DNA of 24,907 nt from a virus, in IMG/VR virus record IMGVR_UViG_3300010334_000254, positions 1 through 24,907 of that record. One strand, 5' to 3'. The notes beneath the pieces were generated by a model. The model was not told the origin of the DNA, did no database searches, and saw only the letters and a list, made by a program, of their open reading frames with translations. Within the stretch, counting starts at the first letter, position 1; the number at the start of each line of letters is the position of its first letter. Made by a program: the position numbers and the translations under genes. Shown here piece after piece: positions 7,014 to 24,907 of this stretch.

Positions 7014-8999
7014 ATGGCTCAGCAAATAGTTAATACAGGTATTGTAGCTAATGACGGAGTAGGTGATCCGCTACGCACTTCTATGCAAAAAGTTAATAAT
7101 AACTTTTCTGAATTTTATTCCGTATTTGTTCCTGGATCTTCAAATAACGTAACAGCTTCAAATAACTTAACTGTTACCGCTAACGTTATTTCGAATAACA
7201 TTTTTGCTAATACTAAACTTAAAGTTGGTTCTGCAGCAGGATATGATTTTGGTTCCCTTGCTATTATAGAAATTGACGCCTCTCAAAATACCTATGTTCA
7301 ATCAGTTATTCAAAATGCTAATTCTGGAACTAACGCTTCTGGTGATCTTGTAATCACTGCTGATACTGGTAATGATTCCGTCAACTATGTCGACTTTGGT
7401 ATTAATAGCTCTACGTATTCTAATACGACATATACTATTGCTGGAGCATTAGATGCCTATCTTTATACTTCAAATACTAATTTAACTATCGGTACAGCTT
7501 CTGCAAAAGAAGTTATATTCCATGCTGGTGGTACATTAGCTGCAAATAAAGTTTTAACAATCAATGCAACAGCAGTAACAGTTGTAAATAGTATAAGCTT
7601 AGTTGCTAATGGCGCTAGTGGCGCTGCAGGTCAAGTTCTTACTTCAAATGGAAGTGCTTTATATTGGGGTAATCCATCTGTTAACGTAACCGCACAGTAT
7701 TCATGGACAAATACTCAATCATTCAGTAATACTATTACATTCGGTAATAGCACTAGTAATTCAACCCTTACTGCAGCTATTACTTTAAGACAATCTAATT
7801 CGACTGTTAATGCTTCGATGAATTCTAATACAGTTCAAATTGCCAACTCAACTGGTAACACCCAAATTACTGCTACATCATTACTAACGCAAACTAGCGC
7901 CACTGTTAACAGTAATATATCTGCAACTCAGATAAGTGTTGCTAACTCAACTGGTAATATTGCTGTTACTGCTACTTCTGTAACTTTATCAAATTCAACT
8001 GCAGCTTTTCTTGTCGCTAATGCTACTGGCGTTTATGCAACTGTTAATGCTGTATTTAATAGCACAAACCTATTATATACTGGTAATACGACAACACAAC
8101 CAACTGTTACCTTAGCTAATACTGGATCATTTACAATTGGTAATAGTAGTACTACACAAACTACTTCTACTATCGCAGTTGCCAATTCCGTGGGTAATAT
8201 TGCTATTACACCTACTTCTGTAGCATTATCAAATACAACTCAGCCAATATTTGTCGCTAACTCGACAGCTGTAACTGCTTTCAATAAAATTCAAATTGGT
8301 AATAATGCCATAAATCCATATTCATATGGTACTGCAGCAGCTGTTGAAGTTGATTTATCATCTAATGGATTCGTTCAGGTTGTAATACAAAACTCAAATA
8401 CACAATTAAATGCTTCTTCTGACCTTGTTGCAGCAGCTGATAGTGGTAACGATGTAAGCAACTACGTCGATCTTGGTATCAATAGTTCTACATATTCTAA
8501 TGCATCTTATAATATCGGTGGAGCATTAGACGCTTATCTTTACGCTTCTAACGGTGCATTAACTATTGGTACTGCTTCTGTTAAAGACGTTGTTATCCAT
8601 GCTGGTGGTACAACAACTACTAACAGAATTCTTACTGTTAATACAAGTGCTGTTACTGTAAATACTTCAGCCAACCTTACTGTCTTATCAAATACATTTA
8701 ACCTTGGTACTTCAAACGTTGCTGGCCATACAACTTATGGTGCAGGTGGATATACATATCTACCAAACGGTTTGAAAATGATATTTGGAGCGATTACGAC
8801 TGCTAACTCTACAGCTAACATTATATCGTTTTCTGCGCAAAGTGGCGTTTCATTTACTTCAAACTGTTACTCGCTAACTTTAACTTCAAACGCTGTAGCT
8901 TCTGTTGCAGCTGCATATACAGTTAATGCTACTAGCTTTACATTAATAACAAATAGTGCTACTGCATCGACTGTATCGTTTATGGCGATTGGTATTTAA
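7014..8999 (+). CDS. Fibre-like virion protein between gp7 and gp8
   Basis: This 661-aa protein begins with QIVNTGIVANDGVGDPLRTS and then MQKVNNNFSEFY, an N-terminal module I know from marine T4-like phage structural proteins, probably the part that anchors to the virion. The body holds two copies of an NYVDxGINSSTYSN...LTIGTAS domain (about residues 74-193 and 433-550). Between them are a GQVLTSNGSALYWG motif, a YSWTNTQSFSNTITFGNST motif and at least three N/S/T-rich repeats of the form VANSTGNIAVTATSVTLSN, which suggest a beta-helix or beta-prism shaft. The C-terminus (from about 570) is a separate beta domain with the strand NGLKMIFGAIT. It may be a short fibre or baseplate ornament. A ribosome binding site, AAGGAT (6998-7003), precedes the ATG. 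Its place inside the wedge operon argues for baseplate attachment; its ligand is unknown. Confidence 0.8.
   Translation: MAQQIVNTGIVANDGVGDPLRTSMQKVNNNFSEFYSVFVPGSSNNVTASNNLTVTANVISNNIFANTKLKVGSAAGYDFGSLAIIEIDASQNTYVQSVIQNANSGTNASGDLVITADTGNDSVNYVDFGINSSTYSNTTYTIAGALDAYLYTSNTNLTIGTASAKEVIFHAGGTLAANKVLTINATAVTVVNSISLVANGASGAAGQVLTSNGSALYWGNPSVNVTAQYSWTNTQSFSNTITFGNSTSNSTLTAAITLRQSNSTVNASMNSNTVQIANSTGNTQITATSLLTQTSATVNSNISATQISVANSTGNIAVTATSVTLSNSTAAFLVANATGVYATVNAVFNSTNLLYTGNTTTQPTVTLANTGSFTIGNSSTTQTTSTIAVANSVGNIAITPTSVALSNTTQPIFVANSTAVTAFNKIQIGNNAINPYSYGTAAAVEVDLSSNGFVQVVIQNSNTQLNASSDLVAAADSGNDVSNYVDLGINSSTYSNASYNIGGALDAYLYASNGALTIGTASVKDVVIHAGGTTTTNRILTVNTSAVTVNTSANLTVLSNTFNLGTSNVAGHTTYGAGGYTYLPNGLKMIFGAITTANSTANIISFSAQSGVSFTSNCYSLTLTSNAVASVAAAYTVNATSFTLITNSATASTVSFMAIGI
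7233..7592 (+). repeat. NYVDLGINSS..LTIGTAS domain, copy A
   Basis: First copy in the 661-aa protein, running from the AAGYDFGS segment to NATAVTV. It reads VNYVDFGINSSTYSN, then GALDAYLYTSNTNLTIGTAS and then FHAGGTLAANKVLTI. Boundaries are approximate; the match is at the protein level. Confidence 0.85.
8309..8663 (+). repeat. NYVDLGINSS..LTIGTAS domain, copy B
   Basis: Second copy in the same gene, with SNYVDLGINSSTYSN, GALDAYLYASNGALTIGTAS and IHAGGTTTTNRILTV. It aligns with copy A over essentially its full length, and many codons differ, so the duplication is not recent. Boundaries are approximate. Confidence 0.85.
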
Positions 9000-9007
9000 G
9001 GAATAAA

Positions 9008-10534
9008 ATGGGTAAAATTTTACCAGCCTTTAAGAATGCAATTATCGACGATATTGCAGATGGTATTTTAGCGAATACTACTCACTATTATGCATTCGCT
9101 GCATTTTCTGCTAATACACCATCTGCTACAGTAGATGATTCTTTCATCAATGATTGGCAAATGTTATTTGGTAAGAAAATAACATACGGAAATATTTTCC
9201 CAGTTATTTCTAATAAAATTTGGACAACTAATACCGTATATGACATCTATGATAATCATGTCGATTTATCAGAATCTGATTTTTATATTTCTTCTCAATT
9301 AGGTGGTTATTATCTTATCTATAAATGTCTTGATAATGCAAATGGAGCTCCTTCAACTGCTAATCCTAGTTCTGTAGCTATACCTACACAAACTTCGACA
9401 TTTCAAACTGCTGATAATTATAAGTGGAAATATATCACTTCAATTAGTTCTGCTGTCTATAATAGATTTGCAACTGACGCTTATATGCCAGTATATCCAA
9501 ATTCTTCTATTGTTTCAGCCGCTACACAAAATAGTGGTATAGATAATATTTTAATCGCTAATTCTGGTTCTGGATATAACTCTTATCATAGCGGAATTGT
9601 ACAATCAGTTAATACTTCTATTATTCAAATAGAAGCATCTGCTTCTACTATTGATACTTTTTATAAAGGAAATGCGATTTACCTTTACAGTAATGGTACG
9701 CCTTCTTCTTCACAACTTTTAAATGTTTCAAATTCTTATTCAAATTCTACTGGTAGATATATTATACCCGATGCAGCACCAAATACATCAATTATTCAAG
9801 CTGGTGTTTCTGGATATATAATTTCTCCAAGAATTAAAATATATTCAGATGCTACTAATCCTCCTGCAGCATATTGCACAATGAATACAACATCTAATAG
9901 TATTGCAAATGTTATAATTATCAATAGTGGTTCAAATATAACATGGGCTAATATTGCAGTTATAAGTAATACTAGTTATGGTTCTAGTGCTAATTTACAG
10001 GCGATTGTTCCACCTCCAGGTGGTCATGGTTCAGATCCTGCCAGCGAACTATTTGTAAAAGGTATGGGTATATATTTTACTTTTTCAAACAATGAAGTTA
10101 ATTCTATTCCTACAAATATTTCTTATAGTAAAATAGGCTTGATTAAAAATCCATCTGCAATTGATGCTACTGGAGTTAAAACCGCTGTAACATCAGCTAA
10201 TGCATTTAGTTCAATATTACAGGCTAATTTATCTCCAACATTAAATACTCTTTCTTTACTATCCGTTGGTGATACTGTTACTGGAAATACTAGTGGTGCA
10301 GTAGGAACTGTAGTATTTTGTAATACTAGCACGGTATTTTTAACAGGCGATAAAACTTTTGCAAATAATGAATATATTGTAAGTAGTAATGGTAGTATCT
10401 CTACGACACTAGTTATAAATACATTAGGTGATGTTTACACAAAAGATATAAAGCCCATATACGTTCAATCGATTAGCACAGTTTCGAGATCTAACACTCA
10501 AAATGAAGCGTTTAAAATGATTATCCAAATTTAA
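9008..10534 (+). CDS. 8: Baseplate wedge protein gp8, enlarged
   Basis: This 508-aa protein is recognised as gp8 from its ends. The N-terminal part contains FINDWQMLFGKKI, YYLIYKCLDNANGAPS and TADNYKWKYITSISSA...YMPVYP, matching the T4 pattern WLVYRCLD...DGYVWEYLFEIP...VVP. The C-terminus, with IKPIYVQSISTVSRSN and then FKMIIQI, matches the T4 ending in which a PPI motif is followed by a final strand. In T4 gp8 is 334 aa and sits as a dimer on gp7. The extra length lies mainly between residues ~170 and ~460 and consists of NSGSGYNSY-type and GDTVTGNTSGAVGTVVF...FANNEYI modules, also seen in the gp7-like protein. The ribosome binding site TAAGGA (8997-9002) overlaps the previous stop codon. 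The stop is followed 13 bases later by the next start. Confidence 0.85.
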   Translation: MGKILPAFKNAIIDDIADGILANTTHYYAFAAFSANTPSATVDDSFINDWQMLFGKKITYGNIFPVISNKIWTTNTVYDIYDNHVDLSESDFYISSQLGGYYLIYKCLDNANGAPSTANPSSVAIPTQTSTFQTADNYKWKYITSISSAVYNRFATDAYMPVYPNSSIVSAATQNSGIDNILIANSGSGYNSYHSGIVQSVNTSIIQIEASASTIDTFYKGNAIYLYSNGTPSSSQLLNVSNSYSNSTGRYIIPDAAPNTSIIQAGVSGYIISPRIKIYSDATNPPAAYCTMNTTSNSIANVIIINSGSNITWANIAVISNTSYGSSANLQAIVPPPGGHGSDPASELFVKGMGIYFTFSNNEVNSIPTNISYSKIGLIKNPSAIDATGVKTAVTSANAFSSILQANLSPTLNTLSLLSVGDTVTGNTSGAVGTVVFCNTSTVFLTGDKTFANNEYIVSSNGSISTTLVINTLGDVYTKDIKPIYVQSISTVSRSNTQNEAFKMIIQI

Positions 10535-10547
10535 TTAGGGAATAACT

Positions 10548-13500
10548 ATGCCAATTAAGACAGATTTAAATACTCCTCCCTACTATGATGATTATAATGC
10601 AAATAACGAATATTATCGTATTTTGTTTAGACCTGCAACCGCTGTACAAGCTCGCGAACTAACACAAACACAATCGATTCTTCAAAATCAAATTGAAAAT
10701 TTCGGTAATTGGGCTTTTAAAAGCGGTGACATCGTTTCAGGTTGCGCCATTCACGACGATCCAGCTGTTGATTTCGTACGTCTTCAAGATTTTCAAACAA
10801 ATACTGCATCTTTTAGTATAGTTTCATTTGCCAATTTGCAAGTTGTTAGCGCAACTTCTAACTTGACTGCAACTGTTCTTTATGCAAATTCAGGTCTAGT
10901 TTCTCAGTATCCAAATACAAATGTTATCTATGTTAACTATGTTAATACAGGTAATAATGGTGCTAAAGTATTTTCTAATAATGAATCTTTAATTTTCTAT
11001 ACTAATCCAAGAACTGGAAATAATACAGCCGATACTGTTGCTATAGTAAATACATATGCAAATTCTACTTCTGGACAAACAGCTGTTGGTTTAGCGCATG
11101 GTGTCCATGTTGATGCTGGCGTTGTTTATCTTAATGGTGTATTCGTCAATGTATTAAATCCAACATATGGTATTGTTAATAATTTCGGAACATATGCAGG
11201 TAATAATGTTGTTGGGTTCACATTAACTGAATCTATCGTAACAGAAAATCAAGATACATCATTACTTGATAATGCTCTCGGTTATTCAAATGAAAATGCT
11301 CCAGGAGCACATCGTTTAAAATTATTACCAACTCTTGTTTCTCTTGACCCAACTACTTCTTCAAACACAAACGGATTTAATCCGATAGTTTCATATAACT
11401 ATGGATCCCTTATTACCCAAACAATCGCTTCGAAAAATGTATATTCTATTATCGGCGATGTTATGGCTAAGAGAACATATGAAGAATCGGGTAATTATGT
11501 TGTAAATCCATTTGTTGTTGATAGTGTTACTTCTGGTCCAATTTCTTTATCTTCAAATCAAGTTTTTGGCAGAATTAATCCAGGCGTTGGGTATGCACAA
11601 GGTTATCGTGTAGAATTACAAAAAGCAGCATATATTAATATGCGTCGTGGTGTTGATACAGATAATAATAGCCAACAACAAATTACTTTTAATTATGGTG
11701 GATATTTTCTATTAAATGAAGTAGCTGGTGATTTTGATTTTACAAAAGCTGCAAGTGTTACACTATATGACACTGCACAACAAGCAGTAACCAATAGAAC
11801 TTGGAATTCTTTAACTCCTACTGGAACAGCTATCGGTACAGCTTCTTTAAAATGTTTTACATATAATAATGGTTCAATTGGTTCTAACACTGCACAATAC
11901 AATCTTCATGTATTCAATGTTTTTATGAATTCAGGTTATAATGTAAGTCAAATTAAATCTGTATATTATAATGGCACAGTTAAAGGTGTAGGCGATTTAG
12001 TAAAAACAGGTATCCAATCTTCTTCTGTTAAAGATCAACTTTATACTTTTGGTACTCCAGGTCTTTTAAATTTAAGAGATACAAGCAATAATATTAATAC
12101 AGAATACGTTTATAGAAATAGAACATCTGCTACGATGAATACTAGTGGCGACTTAACTGTTACCATTACTTCATCTGCTCCAGGTGGTACTGATATTTTA
12201 CCATATGGTATTGGACAACTTGCAGACTCTGATGCTGTATCATTTAATCTTATTGCTACTGCAAACGTTGATTCTGCTGCTCTTACGGGTACTGTAAACG
12301 TTTCTAGTACAAGCACTACAGTTCTTGGTAACGCGACTTCATTTTTAACTGCTTTTAATCCATTTGATACTATTAAAGTTGGTTCTGATAAAAGAACAAT
12401 TGTTTCTATAACTAACGCAACATCTCTTACAGTTGATTCTGCATTTACATCTACTTTAACTACACAAACATATAATAAAACATATGTTTCTGGAAAACTT
12501 ATTCCAATAAGCACAGCTTCTGTTAATGGTCCTACTTCTTTTGTTAACGTAACAAATTCGACATCATTTACAATTAACACCGCCGAAGTTCCAAGTTCTG
12601 GGTTAGCAGTTGATGTTATCTATGATATATTAAGAACAAATACTAGACCAGCTGCAAAAGTAATTAATAAAAATCGTTTTGTTAAATTAAATACTTTAAC
12701 AACGCCAAATGGTCCATGGTGCTTAGGATATAGTGATGTGCACCAAATTAGAGCAATTTATGGATCAAGTGATGGCACATATTCTATTACCAATAATGAT
12801 GTAACAGAAAATTTTGTATTAGATACAGGTCAAAAAGATACACATTATGATCTTGCTTATTTGTATCCTACTTCTGGATATAATACTAATGCAACTCCAT
12901 ATCTATTAGTTAAGTTAGATTATTTCTCCGCTAATACTTCAGCTGGTGTTAATTTTTATACTGTTGAATCATATCCAATAAATGATGGGTTACCTGGATT
13001 TGTTACCGTTTCATCGAGTAACACTATAGTTCTCGGAACAGATACAACTTTTAATACATCTTTTAATATTGGTGATCTTATTCAAGTAGATAATTTAACA
13101 TTTAGAACTGTAAGTAGCATTTCAAATTCTACATATATGACTGTGAATAATCCATTTAATAATAATCTTGTAAATGTAAATTATTATAATGCAACATCAA
13201 TACAAACTAAAGATATGCCTCTTTATGTCGATGATTCAGGTAAAAAAATACCGCTAAGAGATTATGTAGATTTCCGTGTCAATAGCGTTATAACTGCAAC
13301 TGATACTGGTAAATGCGACACATCAAATACATCGCAGTTAACTGCTGCTATTTCTGCAGCAACTGTTAATCCTTCTTCTACGCTTACTTTTTCAATACCA
13401 ACTAATGGGTTGAATGTACCTTCATATGGTAAAAATTTCCAATCTGATTATACATATTATCTTGGTAGAAAAGATTTGGTTCTTATCACATCAGATAATG

Positions 13501-14447
13501 TTATTAAAGTTAAAGAAGGTTTATCTAGTTTAAGCCCGCAGCATCCACTATATCCAGATAATGCAATGGCTGTTGCTGTTATGGATATTCCCCCATATCC
13601 ATCTTTATCTTCAGACCAACGCGATTCATTATTAACAATAAATCAGCGTTCTAAAAATATAACTCGTGATACATCTCTTGCTATTTCAGTCACTCCTGTA
13701 ACTAATCGTAGATATACTATGAAAGATATTGGGAAAATTGATTCACGAGTTACTAACTTAGAATATTACACAGCTTTAACTCTATTAGAGAAAAAAGCTA
13801 CAGATATGACAGTTACAGATCATAATGGTCTTAATAGATTTAAAAATGGTATCTTCGTAGATCCATTTAATGATTTTACTCAAAGCGATGTATCTAATCC
13901 TGAATATTCTATAGCTATAGATAAAAATAATGGATATGCTAGGCCAAGAATTGTTCGTGAAGTTGTTAAAATTGAATTCAATAGTTCTACATCTTCAAAT
14001 GTTCAACAAACAGGTCGTGTAATATCATTACCATATACTGAAGTTGCTCATATTGTTCAACCTTTTGCAACTAAATATAGAAGTTCTGCTCATGTATCAC
14101 ATGCATGGAATGGAACATGTGTATTAATCCCATCATATGATAATCATGTTGATACAAATAATACAGGTTCTATATCTATTACTGTAGATTTAACAACGCC
14201 ATGGAATGAATTTGCACAAAGCCCATTTGGTTCTATTTGGGGCGATTGGGTAACAACTACATCAGTAACTTCTAAAACGGTCACAACTAATAATGGTGGA
14301 TTTATACCTGTTGTCGATCTCGGTTATGTTGGTCAATTTACAGGTGGTCAAGCACAAGAAAATGCAAATCAAGCAGCTCTTGCTAAAATACATCAAATGT
14401 ATGGTAATAATGTAACTATTGGTTCTCTTTCTATACGTCATAGTTAA
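10548..14447 (+). CDS. Giant virion structural protein, DUF4815-type N-terminus
   Basis: This 1299-aa protein opens with NTPPYYDDYNANNEYYRILF and then RPATAVQARELTQTQSILQ (about residues 8-46), which I recognise as the DUF4815 pattern found in structural proteins of cyanophages and other marine T4-like phages. Its exact place in the virion is not known to me; a baseplate periphery or fibre-attachment role is inferred from its neighbours. The middle is beta-rich and holds two copies of the GTV..TTV.G..T.F domain. The last ~250 residues include a likely coiled-coil and linker motif, KIDSRVTNLEYYTALTLLEK, followed by GLNRFKNGIFVDPFNDF, and end near SPFGSIWGDW. A Shine-Dalgarno TAGGGA (10536-10541) lies six bases before ATG. 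In relatives the conserved C-terminal region seems to continue into what is here the next gene. Confidence 0.85.
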   Translation: MPIKTDLNTPPYYDDYNANNEYYRILFRPATAVQARELTQTQSILQNQIENFGNWAFKSGDIVSGCAIHDDPAVDFVRLQDFQTNTASFSIVSFANLQVVSATSNLTATVLYANSGLVSQYPNTNVIYVNYVNTGNNGAKVFSNNESLIFYTNPRTGNNTADTVAIVNTYANSTSGQTAVGLAHGVHVDAGVVYLNGVFVNVLNPTYGIVNNFGTYAGNNVVGFTLTESIVTENQDTSLLDNALGYSNENAPGAHRLKLLPTLVSLDPTTSSNTNGFNPIVSYNYGSLITQTIASKNVYSIIGDVMAKRTYEESGNYVVNPFVVDSVTSGPISLSSNQVFGRINPGVGYAQGYRVELQKAAYINMRRGVDTDNNSQQQITFNYGGYFLLNEVAGDFDFTKAASVTLYDTAQQAVTNRTWNSLTPTGTAIGTASLKCFTYNNGSIGSNTAQYNLHVFNVFMNSGYNVSQIKSVYYNGTVKGVGDLVKTGIQSSSVKDQLYTFGTPGLLNLRDTSNNINTEYVYRNRTSATMNTSGDLTVTITSSAPGGTDILPYGIGQLADSDAVSFNLIATANVDSAALTGTVNVSSTSTTVLGNATSFLTAFNPFDTIKVGSDKRTIVSITNATSLTVDSAFTSTLTTQTYNKTYVSGKLIPISTASVNGPTSFVNVTNSTSFTINTAEVPSSGLAVDVIYDILRTNTRPAAKVINKNRFVKLNTLTTPNGPWCLGYSDVHQIRAIYGSSDGTYSITNNDVTENFVLDTGQKDTHYDLAYLYPTSGYNTNATPYLLVKLDYFSANTSAGVNFYTVESYPINDGLPGFVTVSSSNTIVLGTDTTFNTSFNIGDLIQVDNLTFRTVSSISNSTYMTVNNPFNNNLVNVNYYNATSIQTKDMPLYVDDSGKKIPLRDYVDFRVNSVITATDTGKCDTSNTSQLTAAISAATVNPSSTLTFSIPTNGLNVPSYGKNFQSDYTYYLGRKDLVLITSDNVIKVKEGLSSLSPQHPLYPDNAMAVAVMDIPPYPSLSSDQRDSLLTINQRSKNITRDTSLAISVTPVTNRRYTMKDIGKIDSRVTNLEYYTALTLLEKKATDMTVTDHNGLNRFKNGIFVDPFNDFTQSDVSNPEYSIAIDKNNGYARPRIVREVVKIEFNSSTSSNVQQTGRVISLPYTEVAHIVQPFATKYRSSAHVSHAWNGTCVLIPSYDNHVDTNNTGSISITVDLTTPWNEFAQSPFGSIWGDWVTTTSVTSKTVTTNNGGFIPVVDLGYVGQFTGGQAQENANQAALAKIHQMYGNNVTIGSLSIRHS
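12288..12480 (+). repeat. GTV..TTVTGTGTxF domain, copy 2 (in 1299-aa protein)
   Basis: Pattern GTVNVSSTSTTVLGNATSF, then FDTIKVGSDKRTIVSI and TSLTVDSAF. It is an in-frame protein-level repeat of copy 1. Boundaries are approximate. Confidence 0.75.
12996..13190 (+). repeat. GTV..TTVTGTGTxF domain, copy 3 (in 1299-aa protein)
   Basis: Pattern GFVTVSSSNTIVLGTDTTF, then IGDLIQVDNLTFRTVSSI and TYMTVNNPF. Second copy within the same gene. Boundaries are approximate. Confidence 0.75.
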
Positions 14448-21663: not shown

Positions 21664-21882
21664 ATGGATAATGATTTTGTAAATTTATATATTGAAAGAA
21701 TTGTAAAAGAAGTTGAGGAGTTGACAAAAGCTCGACTCCTCAACGAAGCTAAAGCTAGTTACCTCGAAAGTGCAAATCAAAAATTGCTTGCACATATCGA
21801 GGAACTAGAAAAGCAAATTGATAAACAAAGTAAAAAAGTTAAAAAAGAAGTAAATACTTCTAACACTTCTGACGATTTTTAA
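21664..21882 (+). CDS. Small coiled-coil protein between fibre genes, 72 aa
   Basis: I chose ATG 21664 because GGAG (21654-21657) lies six bases before it; the earlier ATG at 21652 would place this Shine-Dalgarno inside the gene. The protein is almost entirely one charged helix, with heptad-like segments FVNLYIERIVKEVEELTKA and LLAHIEELEKQIDKQ, followed by a Lys-rich stretch and a TSNTSDDF tail. No family name comes to mind. A location between two giant fibre genes suggests a role in fibre assembly, such as a chaperone or a trimerisation cap, but this is inference. A strong hairpin lies within its coding sequence. The next gene starts 31 bases later. Confidence 0.75.
   Translation: MDNDFVNLYIERIVKEVEELTKARLLNEAKASYLESANQKLLAHIEELEKQIDKQSKKVKKEVNTSNTSDDF
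21712..21744 (+). other. Strong intragenic hairpin
   Basis: GTTGAGGAGTTGA (21712-21724) pairs with TCGACTCCTCAAC (21732-21744): 13 pairs with a single G-U wobble, around a 7-nt CAAAAGC loop. It is fully inside the 72-aa gene and has no T-run after it, so it is not a simple terminator. It may mark a regulatory or processing site. Confidence 0.6.
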
Positions 21883-21913: not shown

Positions 21914-24907
21914 ATGGCTAATACAGTACTAAAAGTTTTACGCACATCAACTGCGGGAAAACAGCCAAATACTACAAATGCTGCTAATTTACAGTATATT
22001 GATGCTGGTGAATTAGCACTCAATATGGCTGATAAAATCCTCTATACATCAAATGGTTCTGCCCTTATTGCAATTGGCGCTAACCAAGTAAATCAAAACA
22101 TAACTGGCAATCTTACATTGGCTACCACATCTGGTATTTCTGCCAATGGATCATATGGTACAGCTGGTCAAGTTCTCACAACTAATGCCACTTCTGTTTA
22201 TTGGTCAACAGTCAGTAGTGGCTCTAGTAGTTTAACTGTTAGAAGCACTAACGGTGATGGCGGAACTATCAACGTAGCAGTAGGAAGTGTTACTGCAATT
22301 AATTTCGATGAATCGACTGGTATTCATGTTAAGGATCAAGGTTCTGGTAATGTGTTCGTTAGCCTAGGGTCTGGATACAAGTACATTACAGTTGCTGGGC
22401 AACAAACGATTACTGCCGTTGGCGAAGATACATTAAATGTTGCTAATGCACAAGGTATCTATTTAACAACTACTAATACAGCGCCGAAAACATTAACGAT
22501 TGGTATTAATGTAGACTCTCAATTTACTTGGTCTAATACACAGACATTTAGTAATACAATCACATTTAATTCTAATACTAATTATGGCGCAATTGCTGCT
22601 ACTTCTGGAACTGTAGTATCCAATAATAAAATAGTTATCGGTAATAATAGTGTTAATTCTTCGATTAACTCAACAGCGTTTACTGGCACATCTAACAATA
22701 CTTCATATGTTGGATCAGTAACAGCCGCTAACGTAGTATCAAATGCCCAGTTATCAGGTAATCTTTCTAATTATCAAACTACTGCTGGACTATCAGCTAA
22801 CGTTGCGACATTAACATCGAATAATACATCGTATGTCGGTTCTGTTACAGCGGCTAACGTAGTTTCTAATGCACAATTATCAGGTAATCTTTCTAACTAT
22901 CAAACTACTGCTGGATTGAGCGCTAACGTAGCTACATTAACTGCCAACAATACATCTTTTGTTGGAACAGTGTCAGCTGCTAACGTAGTATCAAATACAC
23001 AATTATCAAGTAACTTAGCAAATTATTTTAATCTTACTGGAAGTTATACGCTTAGTAATACGCAAACATTTAGTAATAATATTACATTCGGTAATAGTAC
23101 AGTTAATGTAGTTTCAAATTCATCTATACTACAGATGTCTAATGGCACTGCTCAATATAGTGCTATGTTATTACCAAGATCAAGTGTAGGATCTCTATTC
23201 ACCCTTGGAATAGATACCACCGTAGGACAAGGTCCAGGAGGCTCAACTATCTATTTCCCACAAGGTGATTTTCCTTTAAGTTGGAATATATTTACTGTTA
23301 ATACTTCGCTTATGCAAATGGGTAATAGTACCAATTATGTAAACTTTAGTACAGGTGCTATTCAATTTACTATACCTTCTGCATCAGGCGGTGGAATCAC
23401 TGTTAATAATAGCGGTTTCTATGCTGGTAATAATAGTAATGTTGTAGCAAACACAACTGGCTTTTATATAAATGGATCTGAAAAATATCTTACAACAGCT
23501 GGTTTGGCTTCTAACGTAGCTACATTAACAGCGAATAACACTAGTTTCGTAGGTTCAGTATCAGCCGCAAACGTAGTTTCGAATGCGCAATTGTCAGGCA
23601 ATTTATCTAATTATCAAACTACTGCTGGTATGTCTTCTTACCAAACGACTGCTGGTCTTTCAGCTAATGTTGCGACATTAACTGCCAACAATACTTCATA
23701 TGTTGGATCTGTAACAGCTGTTAACGTAGTTTCTAATGCACAATTATCAGGTAATCTTTCTAATTATCAAACTACTGCTGGTATGTCATCTTATCAAACA
23801 ACAGCAGGACTTTCTGCTAACGTTGCAACTCTAGCAGCTAATAATGCTTCTTATCTTGGAACTATAGCAGCTGCTAACTATGTTCAAAATACCGACTCGC
23901 GCACGCTGTCGGGCAACTTGAACTTTACAGGTGCTAACAATACTTTTGGAACTATGTATACAGTAGGTGCAGTTCCAGGGGCGGTTACTAACAGCGTAAG
24001 TGCAAATACTACAACAATATTATTTGGTAATAGTTCTGTATTTGCAACAGCCAACTCAACAATATTTTCTGGAACATCATTAACTGCAAACAACGCTTCT
24101 TATCTTGGTGGAACAGCAGCTTCAGGATATCAAACAACTGCTGGTCTATCTGCTAACGTTGCTACGCTTTCATCTAACAACGCTTCTTATCTTGGTGGAA
24201 CAATAGCATCTGGTTATCAAACTACTGCTGGTCTATCTGCTAACGTTGCAACATTGACTGCTAATGCCGCTGGTTACTTAGGAACAGTTGCAGCTGCTAA
24301 CTACGTGCAGAACACCGACAGCCGTACTCTATCTGGTAACATAAACTTCACAGGTACCAATACTTACTTCTCTGGTAAGGCAACGCACAACGCTAACTTG
24401 GTACTGAATCCAGGCATTAGTGTTATTGATTCTACGGGTTCGCAGGGTACTGCTGGACAAATACTTTCCTCAAATGGCTCTGGTAACGTATATTGGGCGT
24501 CTGCAGGTGCAGCATCAGTTAATCAAGCCGCTCAGTACGCTTGGACTAACACACAGACATTCAGTAACACAATTACATTTAGTTCATCTATATTGGCAAA
24601 TACAATTAATGCTGCATCATATTCAGTTGGAACATTATTCACAGCAAATTCAACACTTGTTAATGCTGCTGCTATTAATATTACTGGTCAGGTTAACGCT
24701 GCTACCCTATACGCTACGACTTCTGCAAATGTTGGCACTGCTTTCGTAGCCAATACTATCGGCGCGTATCATACTGGAACTATGAATGCAGCATCTTATA
24801 CTGTAGGAACTACCTTTACAGCCAATTCTACGCTGGTAAATGCTGCGGCAATAAACATTACTGGTCAAACTAATACGGCTACATTTTATGCTACTACAAC
24901 AGCAAAC
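21914..24907 (+). CDS. Second large tail fibre protein, right-truncated
   Basis: The frame is open from ATG 21914 to the window edge (998 codons, no stop), so the end lies outside. The start is supported by GAGG seven bases upstream; the ATG at 21907 is in another frame. The N-terminus (TVLKVLRTSTAGKQPNTTNA, then LQYIDAGELALNMADKILYT) is an anchor module of the same general type as in the first fibre. Next come GQVLTTNATSVYWS, a FTWSNTQTFSNTITF motif, and tandem repeats with periods of 126, 153 and 87 bp built around the motifs NNTSYVGSVTAANVV and YQTTAGLSANVATL. There is a GPGGSTIYFPQG domain shared with the 957-aa fibre. Two YVQNTDSRTLSGN modules follow, then GQILSSNGSGNVYWA and YAWTNTQTFSNTITF. 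The receptor-binding end is missing. It is a fibre or fibre-shaft protein for host adsorption. Confidence 0.85.
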   Translation, partial: MANTVLKVLRTSTAGKQPNTTNAANLQYIDAGELALNMADKILYTSNGSALIAIGANQVNQNITGNLTLATTSGISANGSYGTAGQVLTTNATSVYWSTVSSGSSSLTVRSTNGDGGTINVAVGSVTAINFDESTGIHVKDQGSGNVFVSLGSGYKYITVAGQQTITAVGEDTLNVANAQGIYLTTTNTAPKTLTIGINVDSQFTWSNTQTFSNTITFNSNTNYGAIAATSGTVVSNNKIVIGNNSVNSSINSTAFTGTSNNTSYVGSVTAANVVSNAQLSGNLSNYQTTAGLSANVATLTSNNTSYVGSVTAANVVSNAQLSGNLSNYQTTAGLSANVATLTANNTSFVGTVSAANVVSNTQLSSNLANYFNLTGSYTLSNTQTFSNNITFGNSTVNVVSNSSILQMSNGTAQYSAMLLPRSSVGSLFTLGIDTTVGQGPGGSTIYFPQGDFPLSWNIFTVNTSLMQMGNSTNYVNFSTGAIQFTIPSASGGGITVNNSGFYAGNNSNVVANTTGFYINGSEKYLTTAGLASNVATLTANNTSFVGSVSAANVVSNAQLSGNLSNYQTTAGMSSYQTTAGLSANVATLTANNTSYVGSVTAVNVVSNAQLSGNLSNYQTTAGMSSYQTTAGLSANVATLAANNASYLGTIAAANYVQNTDSRTLSGNLNFTGANNTFGTMYTVGAVPGAVTNSVSANTTTILFGNSSVFATANSTIFSGTSLTANNASYLGGTAASGYQTTAGLSANVATLSSNNASYLGGTIASGYQTTAGLSANVATLTANAAGYLGTVAAANYVQNTDSRTLSGNINFTGTNTYFSGKATHNANLVLNPGISVIDSTGSQGTAGQILSSNGSGNVYWASAGAASVNQAAQYAWTNTQTFSNTITFSSSILANTINAASYSVGTLFTANSTLVNAAAINITGQVNAATLYATTSANVGTAFVANTIGAYHTGTMNAASYTVGTTFTANSTLVNAAAINITGQTNTATFYATTTAN
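22694..23031 (+). repeat. 126-bp in-frame tandem repeats
   Basis: Units begin at 22694, 22820 and 22946, a constant 126-bp (42-residue) step; the third is incomplete at its end. Each has NNTS(Y/F)VG(S/T)V, AANVVSN and a QLSGNLSNYQ-type segment. Units 1 and 2 encode 41 identical residues out of 42 but differ at 23 bases by my count. Confidence 0.88.
23534..23839 (+). repeat. 153-bp in-frame tandem repeats
   Basis: Units begin at 23534 and 23687, and a further related unit starts at 23840, so the step is 153 bp (51 residues). Each is the 42-residue unit enlarged by a 9-residue duplication that gives YQTTAGMSSYQTTAGLSANV. Confidence 0.87.
24089..24262 (+). repeat. 87-bp in-frame tandem repeats
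   Basis: Units begin at 24089 and 24176, with a degenerate third at 24263, a step of 87 bp (29 residues): NNASYLGGT, then ASGYQTTAGLSANVATL. Units 1 and 2 agree at 74 of 87 bases by my count. This is the same module as in the longer repeats with the AANVVSNAQL part removed. Confidence 0.88.

Follow-up and report, generated by a model that had tools for sequence, protein, structure and literature searches.

Silent drift under protein constraint and piecemeal exchange as the probable source of rewritten codons in a 42-residue repeat of phage tail-fibre-like genes

In T-even phages, the distal tail-fibre genes are repeat-rich adhesin genes, and recombination among their short repeated motifs reshuffles them. 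The fibre gene described here is likewise repeat-rich and reshuffled, but its 42-residue unit gave no match in Pfam, PHROGs or the sequences of solved structures in the PDB. Taken as an analogy, the closest precedent for this unit is polyubiquitin (PMC10457151), for whose repeats concerted versus birth-and-death evolution has long been debated (PMC10457151 and works cited there). Like the fibre units, polyubiquitin repeats are arranged head-to-tail, are near-identical in protein, carry many silent differences, are under strong purifying selection and exchange sequence between units, with units of one gene being more alike than those of different species. Unlike polyubiquitin, the fibre units are phage modules that have variable linkers and additional motifs and are not cleaved into monomers, and their tract exchange is seen between phages too. 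On a broader scale Persi, Wolf and Koonin (2016; PMC5120217), whose text does not mention viruses, compared dN/dS among the repeats within a protein and found mostly purifying selection, relaxed constraint and fast divergence between one protein's repeats being the rule and adjacent repeats being more alike. The same comparison reveals purifying selection here as well, but omega is very low and the first unit (U1) is nearer to the fifth (U5) than to its adjacent neighbour (U2). Searching the literature for repetitive proteins in which codon divergence is selected returned no direct precedent.

The initial annotation of this locus had described two tandem units with nearly identical protein and heavily rewritten codons, and had proposed either a very old duplication under strong protein constraint or selection for codon divergence that keeps tandem repeats from recombining. 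In our assessment, the pattern reflects with a probability of roughly 0.88 ordinary long-term silent drift under protein constraint, together with exchange of pieces among the repeats, rather than selection for codon divergence, by which a plausible-looking case of codon-level selection would be settled as ordinary.

The fibre gene and its repeat units

The window, i.e. the whole stretch of DNA that was analysed, is a complete IMG/VR virus record of 24907 bases. A tail-fibre-like ORF is located on its plus strand (21914..24907), starting with ATG and remaining open at the window end after 998 residues. The N-terminal 63 residues match a gp37-like tail fibre of Acinetobacter phage 133 (44%, E 2e-6) and the rest is unmatched; searching the ORF against PHROGs (0 matches) and against the sequences of solved structures in the PDB yielded nothing. 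Upstream of it lie the T4-like baseplate wedge families phrog_261, phrog_219, phrog_17744 and phrog_438, placing the ORF in a T4-like baseplate/fibre region, as well as several other repeat-rich fibre-like ORFs and a long VrlC-like ORF (10548-14447) with relatives in Rhizobium, Caulobacter and Sinorhizobium phages. A small coiled-coil-like ORF of 72 residues (21664-21882) is situated between two fibre ORFs and has same-place relatives in contigs L013 (67%) and L014 (43%). Furthermore, the motif WTNTQTFSNTITF is common to the ORF at 7014 (7710-7753) and the fibre ORF (22534-22566, 23056-23088 and 24547-24579) at 85-89% DNA identity and recurs in the fibre ORFs of other contigs; it is another module moved between fibre genes.

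Repeat search confirmed the repeat (family D1) and showed that the ORF contains the unit five times, with starts at 22694, 22820, 22946 (partial), 23534 and 23687, so that the two tandem units of the initial annotation are real but incomplete as a description of the array. By codon alignment and unit scan, U1 (22694..22819, plus strand, like all units; NNTSYVGSVTAANVVSNAQLSGNLSNYQTTAGLSANVATLTS) and U2 (22820..22945) both comprise 42 residues. They are directly followed by U3 (22946..23026), in which about 27 residues from the unit's N-terminal part give way to a different sequence (unit comparison and scan). U4 (23534..23686) is, by unit comparison, a 42-residue unit with nine extra residues (a second YQTTAG motif), and U5 (23687..23839) has the same 51-residue form but is a mosaic, with a U1-like start and a U2-like middle, as revealed by unit comparison and tracts. 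A related but shorter unit of 29 residues (NNASYLGGTAASGYQTTAGLSANVATLSS) occurs twice at 24089..24262 on the same strand, as found by repeat search and codon alignment. The 42-residue unit probably represents a structural module of the fibre shaft; a monomer structure model of U1-U3, built with 12 homologous segments, was too poor for use (mean pLDDT 45.6, pTM 0.19).

Silent divergence of neighbouring units compared with chance

Aligned over 42 codons, U1 and U2 share 41 residues and differ in 19 codons and 23 bases. Eighteen synonymous codon pairs account for 21 of these bases, including CTA/TTG with two and TCA/AGC with three, and the other two belong to a single Ser(TCG)/Ala(GCC) replacement; the counts of the initial annotation, including both codon switches, were thus exact. 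The codon-level dN/dS comparison that it had recommended gave a dS of 1.14, a dN of 0.036 and an omega of 0.03 for U1-U2 (NG86), and an omega of 0.06-0.08 for the remaining unit pairs of the window, indicating strong protein constraint.

The silent difference between U1 and U2 is no greater than chance. Given the gene's own codon usage, independent random codons would produce about 29 silent differences against the 21 observed, and the two units are slightly more alike than random codons (103 versus 94.9 matching bases, p = 0.035). Saturation of silent sites makes unit ages unreliable.

The proposal that silent differences between tandem units are favoured because they keep the array from recombining and thereby losing copies takes its appeal from the high silent divergence itself, found in U1 and U2 despite near-identical protein. 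We consider it very improbable, as it is contradicted by a random-codon test on 117 unit pairs with at least 34 shared residues. In none of these was the DNA less similar than expected for random synonymous codons (p<0.05), whereas 42-43% of them were significantly more similar. Neither do adjacent units stand out as more diverged, the median silent divergence being 0.78 for adjacent and distant pairs alike, and codon identity is higher within arrays (0.49) than between phages (0.43). In addition, the longest exact matches exceed those of random codons, the excess being largest where units are adjacent (median 24 nt versus 12.4 nt simulated), and exact tracts common to different units imply that recombination was not stopped.

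Exchange of tracts between units and between phages

Exact matches connect both U1 and U2 with U5. A 42-nt tract of U2 (22855..22896, plus strand) is identical to 23722-23763 in U5, a match length reached in 0 of 5000 random-codon simulations, and the run test for this pair gave p = 0.0037 (25 silent-variable codons; not corrected for the six pairs compared). Similarly, a 38-nt tract of U1 (22751..22788, plus strand) is identical to 23744-23781 in U5 (longest match versus random codons, p = 0.0004). If the nine extra codons of U5 are disregarded, the DNA of U1 is 87.3% identical to that of U5 but 81.7% identical to that of U2; the closest relative of U1 within the gene is thus not the unit next to it.

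These observations bear on a simple scenario in which U1 was duplicated in tandem long ago to give U2 and only point mutations followed. Head-to-tail placement, 41 of 42 shared residues and a low omega are all in line with it, but it leaves unexplained why U5 is a mosaic with U1 and U2, why the differences between the latter are spread unevenly (1 of 13 codons in codons 19-31 versus 18 of 29 elsewhere), and why U2 shares more codons with a unit of another phage, through the tract described below, than with U1. We therefore regard it as unlikely. Of the old duplication under strong constraint put forward initially, the old divergence and the constraint hold, as supported by the omega of 0.03 and by a unit on another phage contig (L141:485) which has 41 of 42 residues in common with U2 at a DNA identity of 80.2%, while a single duplication is too simple in view of the mosaics.

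The tract in question is a stretch of 31 nt in U2 (22853-22883, overlapping 22855-22896) that is identical to a unit on another contig, L104:6253. Among codons for the same residue, 27 of 34 (0.79) are identical between U2 and L104:6253, mostly within codons 11-31, compared to 23 of 41 (0.56) between U1 and U2. Together with U1 being closest to U5, this could suggest that U1 and U2 were imported as whole units from different donor phages with diverged versions of the repeat. The likeness to L104 is confined to the tract and does not extend over the whole unit, however, and Tyr4, Thr9 and Gly21, which occur in U1, U2 and U5 and elsewhere together only in L141, favour shared descent of the larger part of each unit. 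As no full donor array was found among the collected contigs either, whole-unit import appears rather doubtful.

Across the family, clumped codon matches (p<0.01) were found in 9.5% of within-array pairs as opposed to 0.3% of between-phage pairs. By these signs, tracts have been exchanged between units and are shared between phages, and recombination was not blocked. Under the reading that we prefer, drift with piecemeal swapping, arrays would have been built up and rearranged through recombination, both among units and from phage to phage, in stretches that do not reach the length of a unit, as a result of which neighbouring units would carry codon sets differing in age and source. The direction of exchange and its donors we infer, as we do the intermediate of the serine switch discussed below.

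Two other arrays deserve mention. In L015 (units at 13424, 13655 and 13820), the first and third units are 95% identical in DNA, the middle one being 76% identical to either with a protein identity of 93-95%, which is a clear case of non-adjacent copying. Unlike other arrays, the one in L159 (5287-6928) has been recently homogenised or expanded, its five units being 87-97% identical in DNA.

The unit family in metagenomic phages and the serine switch

By profile search and an ungapped scan, 394 units (235 unique) were gathered from viral contigs, of which 213 units from 52 contigs formed the non-redundant set after removal of near copies. U1 and U2 match the family profile NNTSFVGSVSAANVVSNAQLSANLANYQTTAGLSANVATLTA over its length with scores of 174 and 176 (ungapped scan, threshold 95; both are in the seed set), and tblastn of U1-U3 against a collection of phage isolates, with the low-complexity filter on, gave no match. 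The two units belong to a family of 42-residue repeats which is widespread and builds tail-fibre-like proteins in T4-like and related phages. Because silent sites tag the history of each unit, this family, absent from Pfam and PHROGs and with more than 200 units sampled from metagenomic phages, offers a data set for measuring the reshuffling of fibre arrays.

Near-random synonymous codons between units of similar protein are found throughout the family. Pairs from the same gene whose proteins are at least 88% identical show silent divergence at a median of 0.78 times what random codons would give, and U1-U2 falls slightly lower, at 0.72. Comparable scrambling at 95-100% protein identity occurs in L092, L093, L094, L104, L105, L137, L142 and others, with ratios of 1.12 for L093 1844/1970 and 0.96 for L105 4522/5080, and with 14 silent differences at 100% protein identity for L092 6007/6133. 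Since similar pairs are scrambled across many arrays, the U1-U2 pattern is what this family normally shows. At nearly every one of the 42 positions, codon identity among the 213 units is about as expected at random from codon usage, the largest excesses being at Val position 5 (0.52 versus 0.36 expected) and Asn position 16 (0.62 versus 0.51); a shared codon-level signal, such as a DNA or RNA element within the unit, was not seen in these per-position values. Purifying selection keeps each unit near one protein sequence, while drift has taken its silent positions most of the way to random codons.

The initial annotation had also suggested asking whether synonymous differences are conserved per unit in related phages. 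In the related contig pairs L095-L115, L139-L142, L130-L132 and L131-L136, most matching units have a DNA identity of about 90-99% (about 93-99% in L095-L115, L130-L132 and L131-L136), so that codons specific to a unit are retained among related phages; vertical omega in these pairs ranges from 0 to 0.30, with few changes. This conservation is seen in those pairs; no close relative of this phage itself (>85% DNA identity across the fibre gene) was present among the fetched loci.

At equal codon scrambling, at least 38 of 42 residues are shared by 13% of full-length within-gene pairs versus 2.3% of between-phage pairs. Such an excess of protein likeness within genes means that a family-wide consensus constraint alone is insufficient, and has to be supplemented either by constraint particular to a gene or by slow concerted evolution. 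Selection may, as a tentative explanation, keep the units of one gene alike in protein since they are packed along one shaft; slow homogenisation at the protein level via short conversion tracts would give the same within-gene likeness.

The TCA/AGC difference had been presented initially as a switch that cannot occur by one silent step, which is correct as arithmetic but weak as evidence. The position concerned (33, 0-based) tolerates other residues: 106 of the 213 units have Ser there, 41 have Thr and 39 have Ala. As Thr and Ala each occur in about one fifth of the units, the switch can be made by way of a permitted residue. Among the serines at position 33, 17% are encoded by AGY, and the share is again 17% when tolerant positions including 33 are pooled, compared to only 3% at the conserved serine of position 15 (0-based, 90% Ser). 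The difference between conserved and pooled tolerant positions is significant (Fisher p 2.7e-8), with one position representing the conserved class and the rank correlation over 12 positions not being significant. Most likely the serine switch would have proceeded via a Thr or Ala intermediate, or through import of a tract, either of which would explain it without double silent steps.

On the phage contig L008, two ORFs with RCC1-like repeats (10228-11355 and 12093-13010; ARKTDGTLWAWG...GQLGDNT...SSPVQIPGTTW), the units of which are near-identical, lie directly downstream of the fibre gene and are perhaps adhesin propellers. Glycine-rich ORFs adjoin the fibre genes of L006 (10173-11156), L007 (2380-3183 and 7827-8498) and L141 (5587-6330), and are reminiscent of the Gly-rich adhesins of phages.
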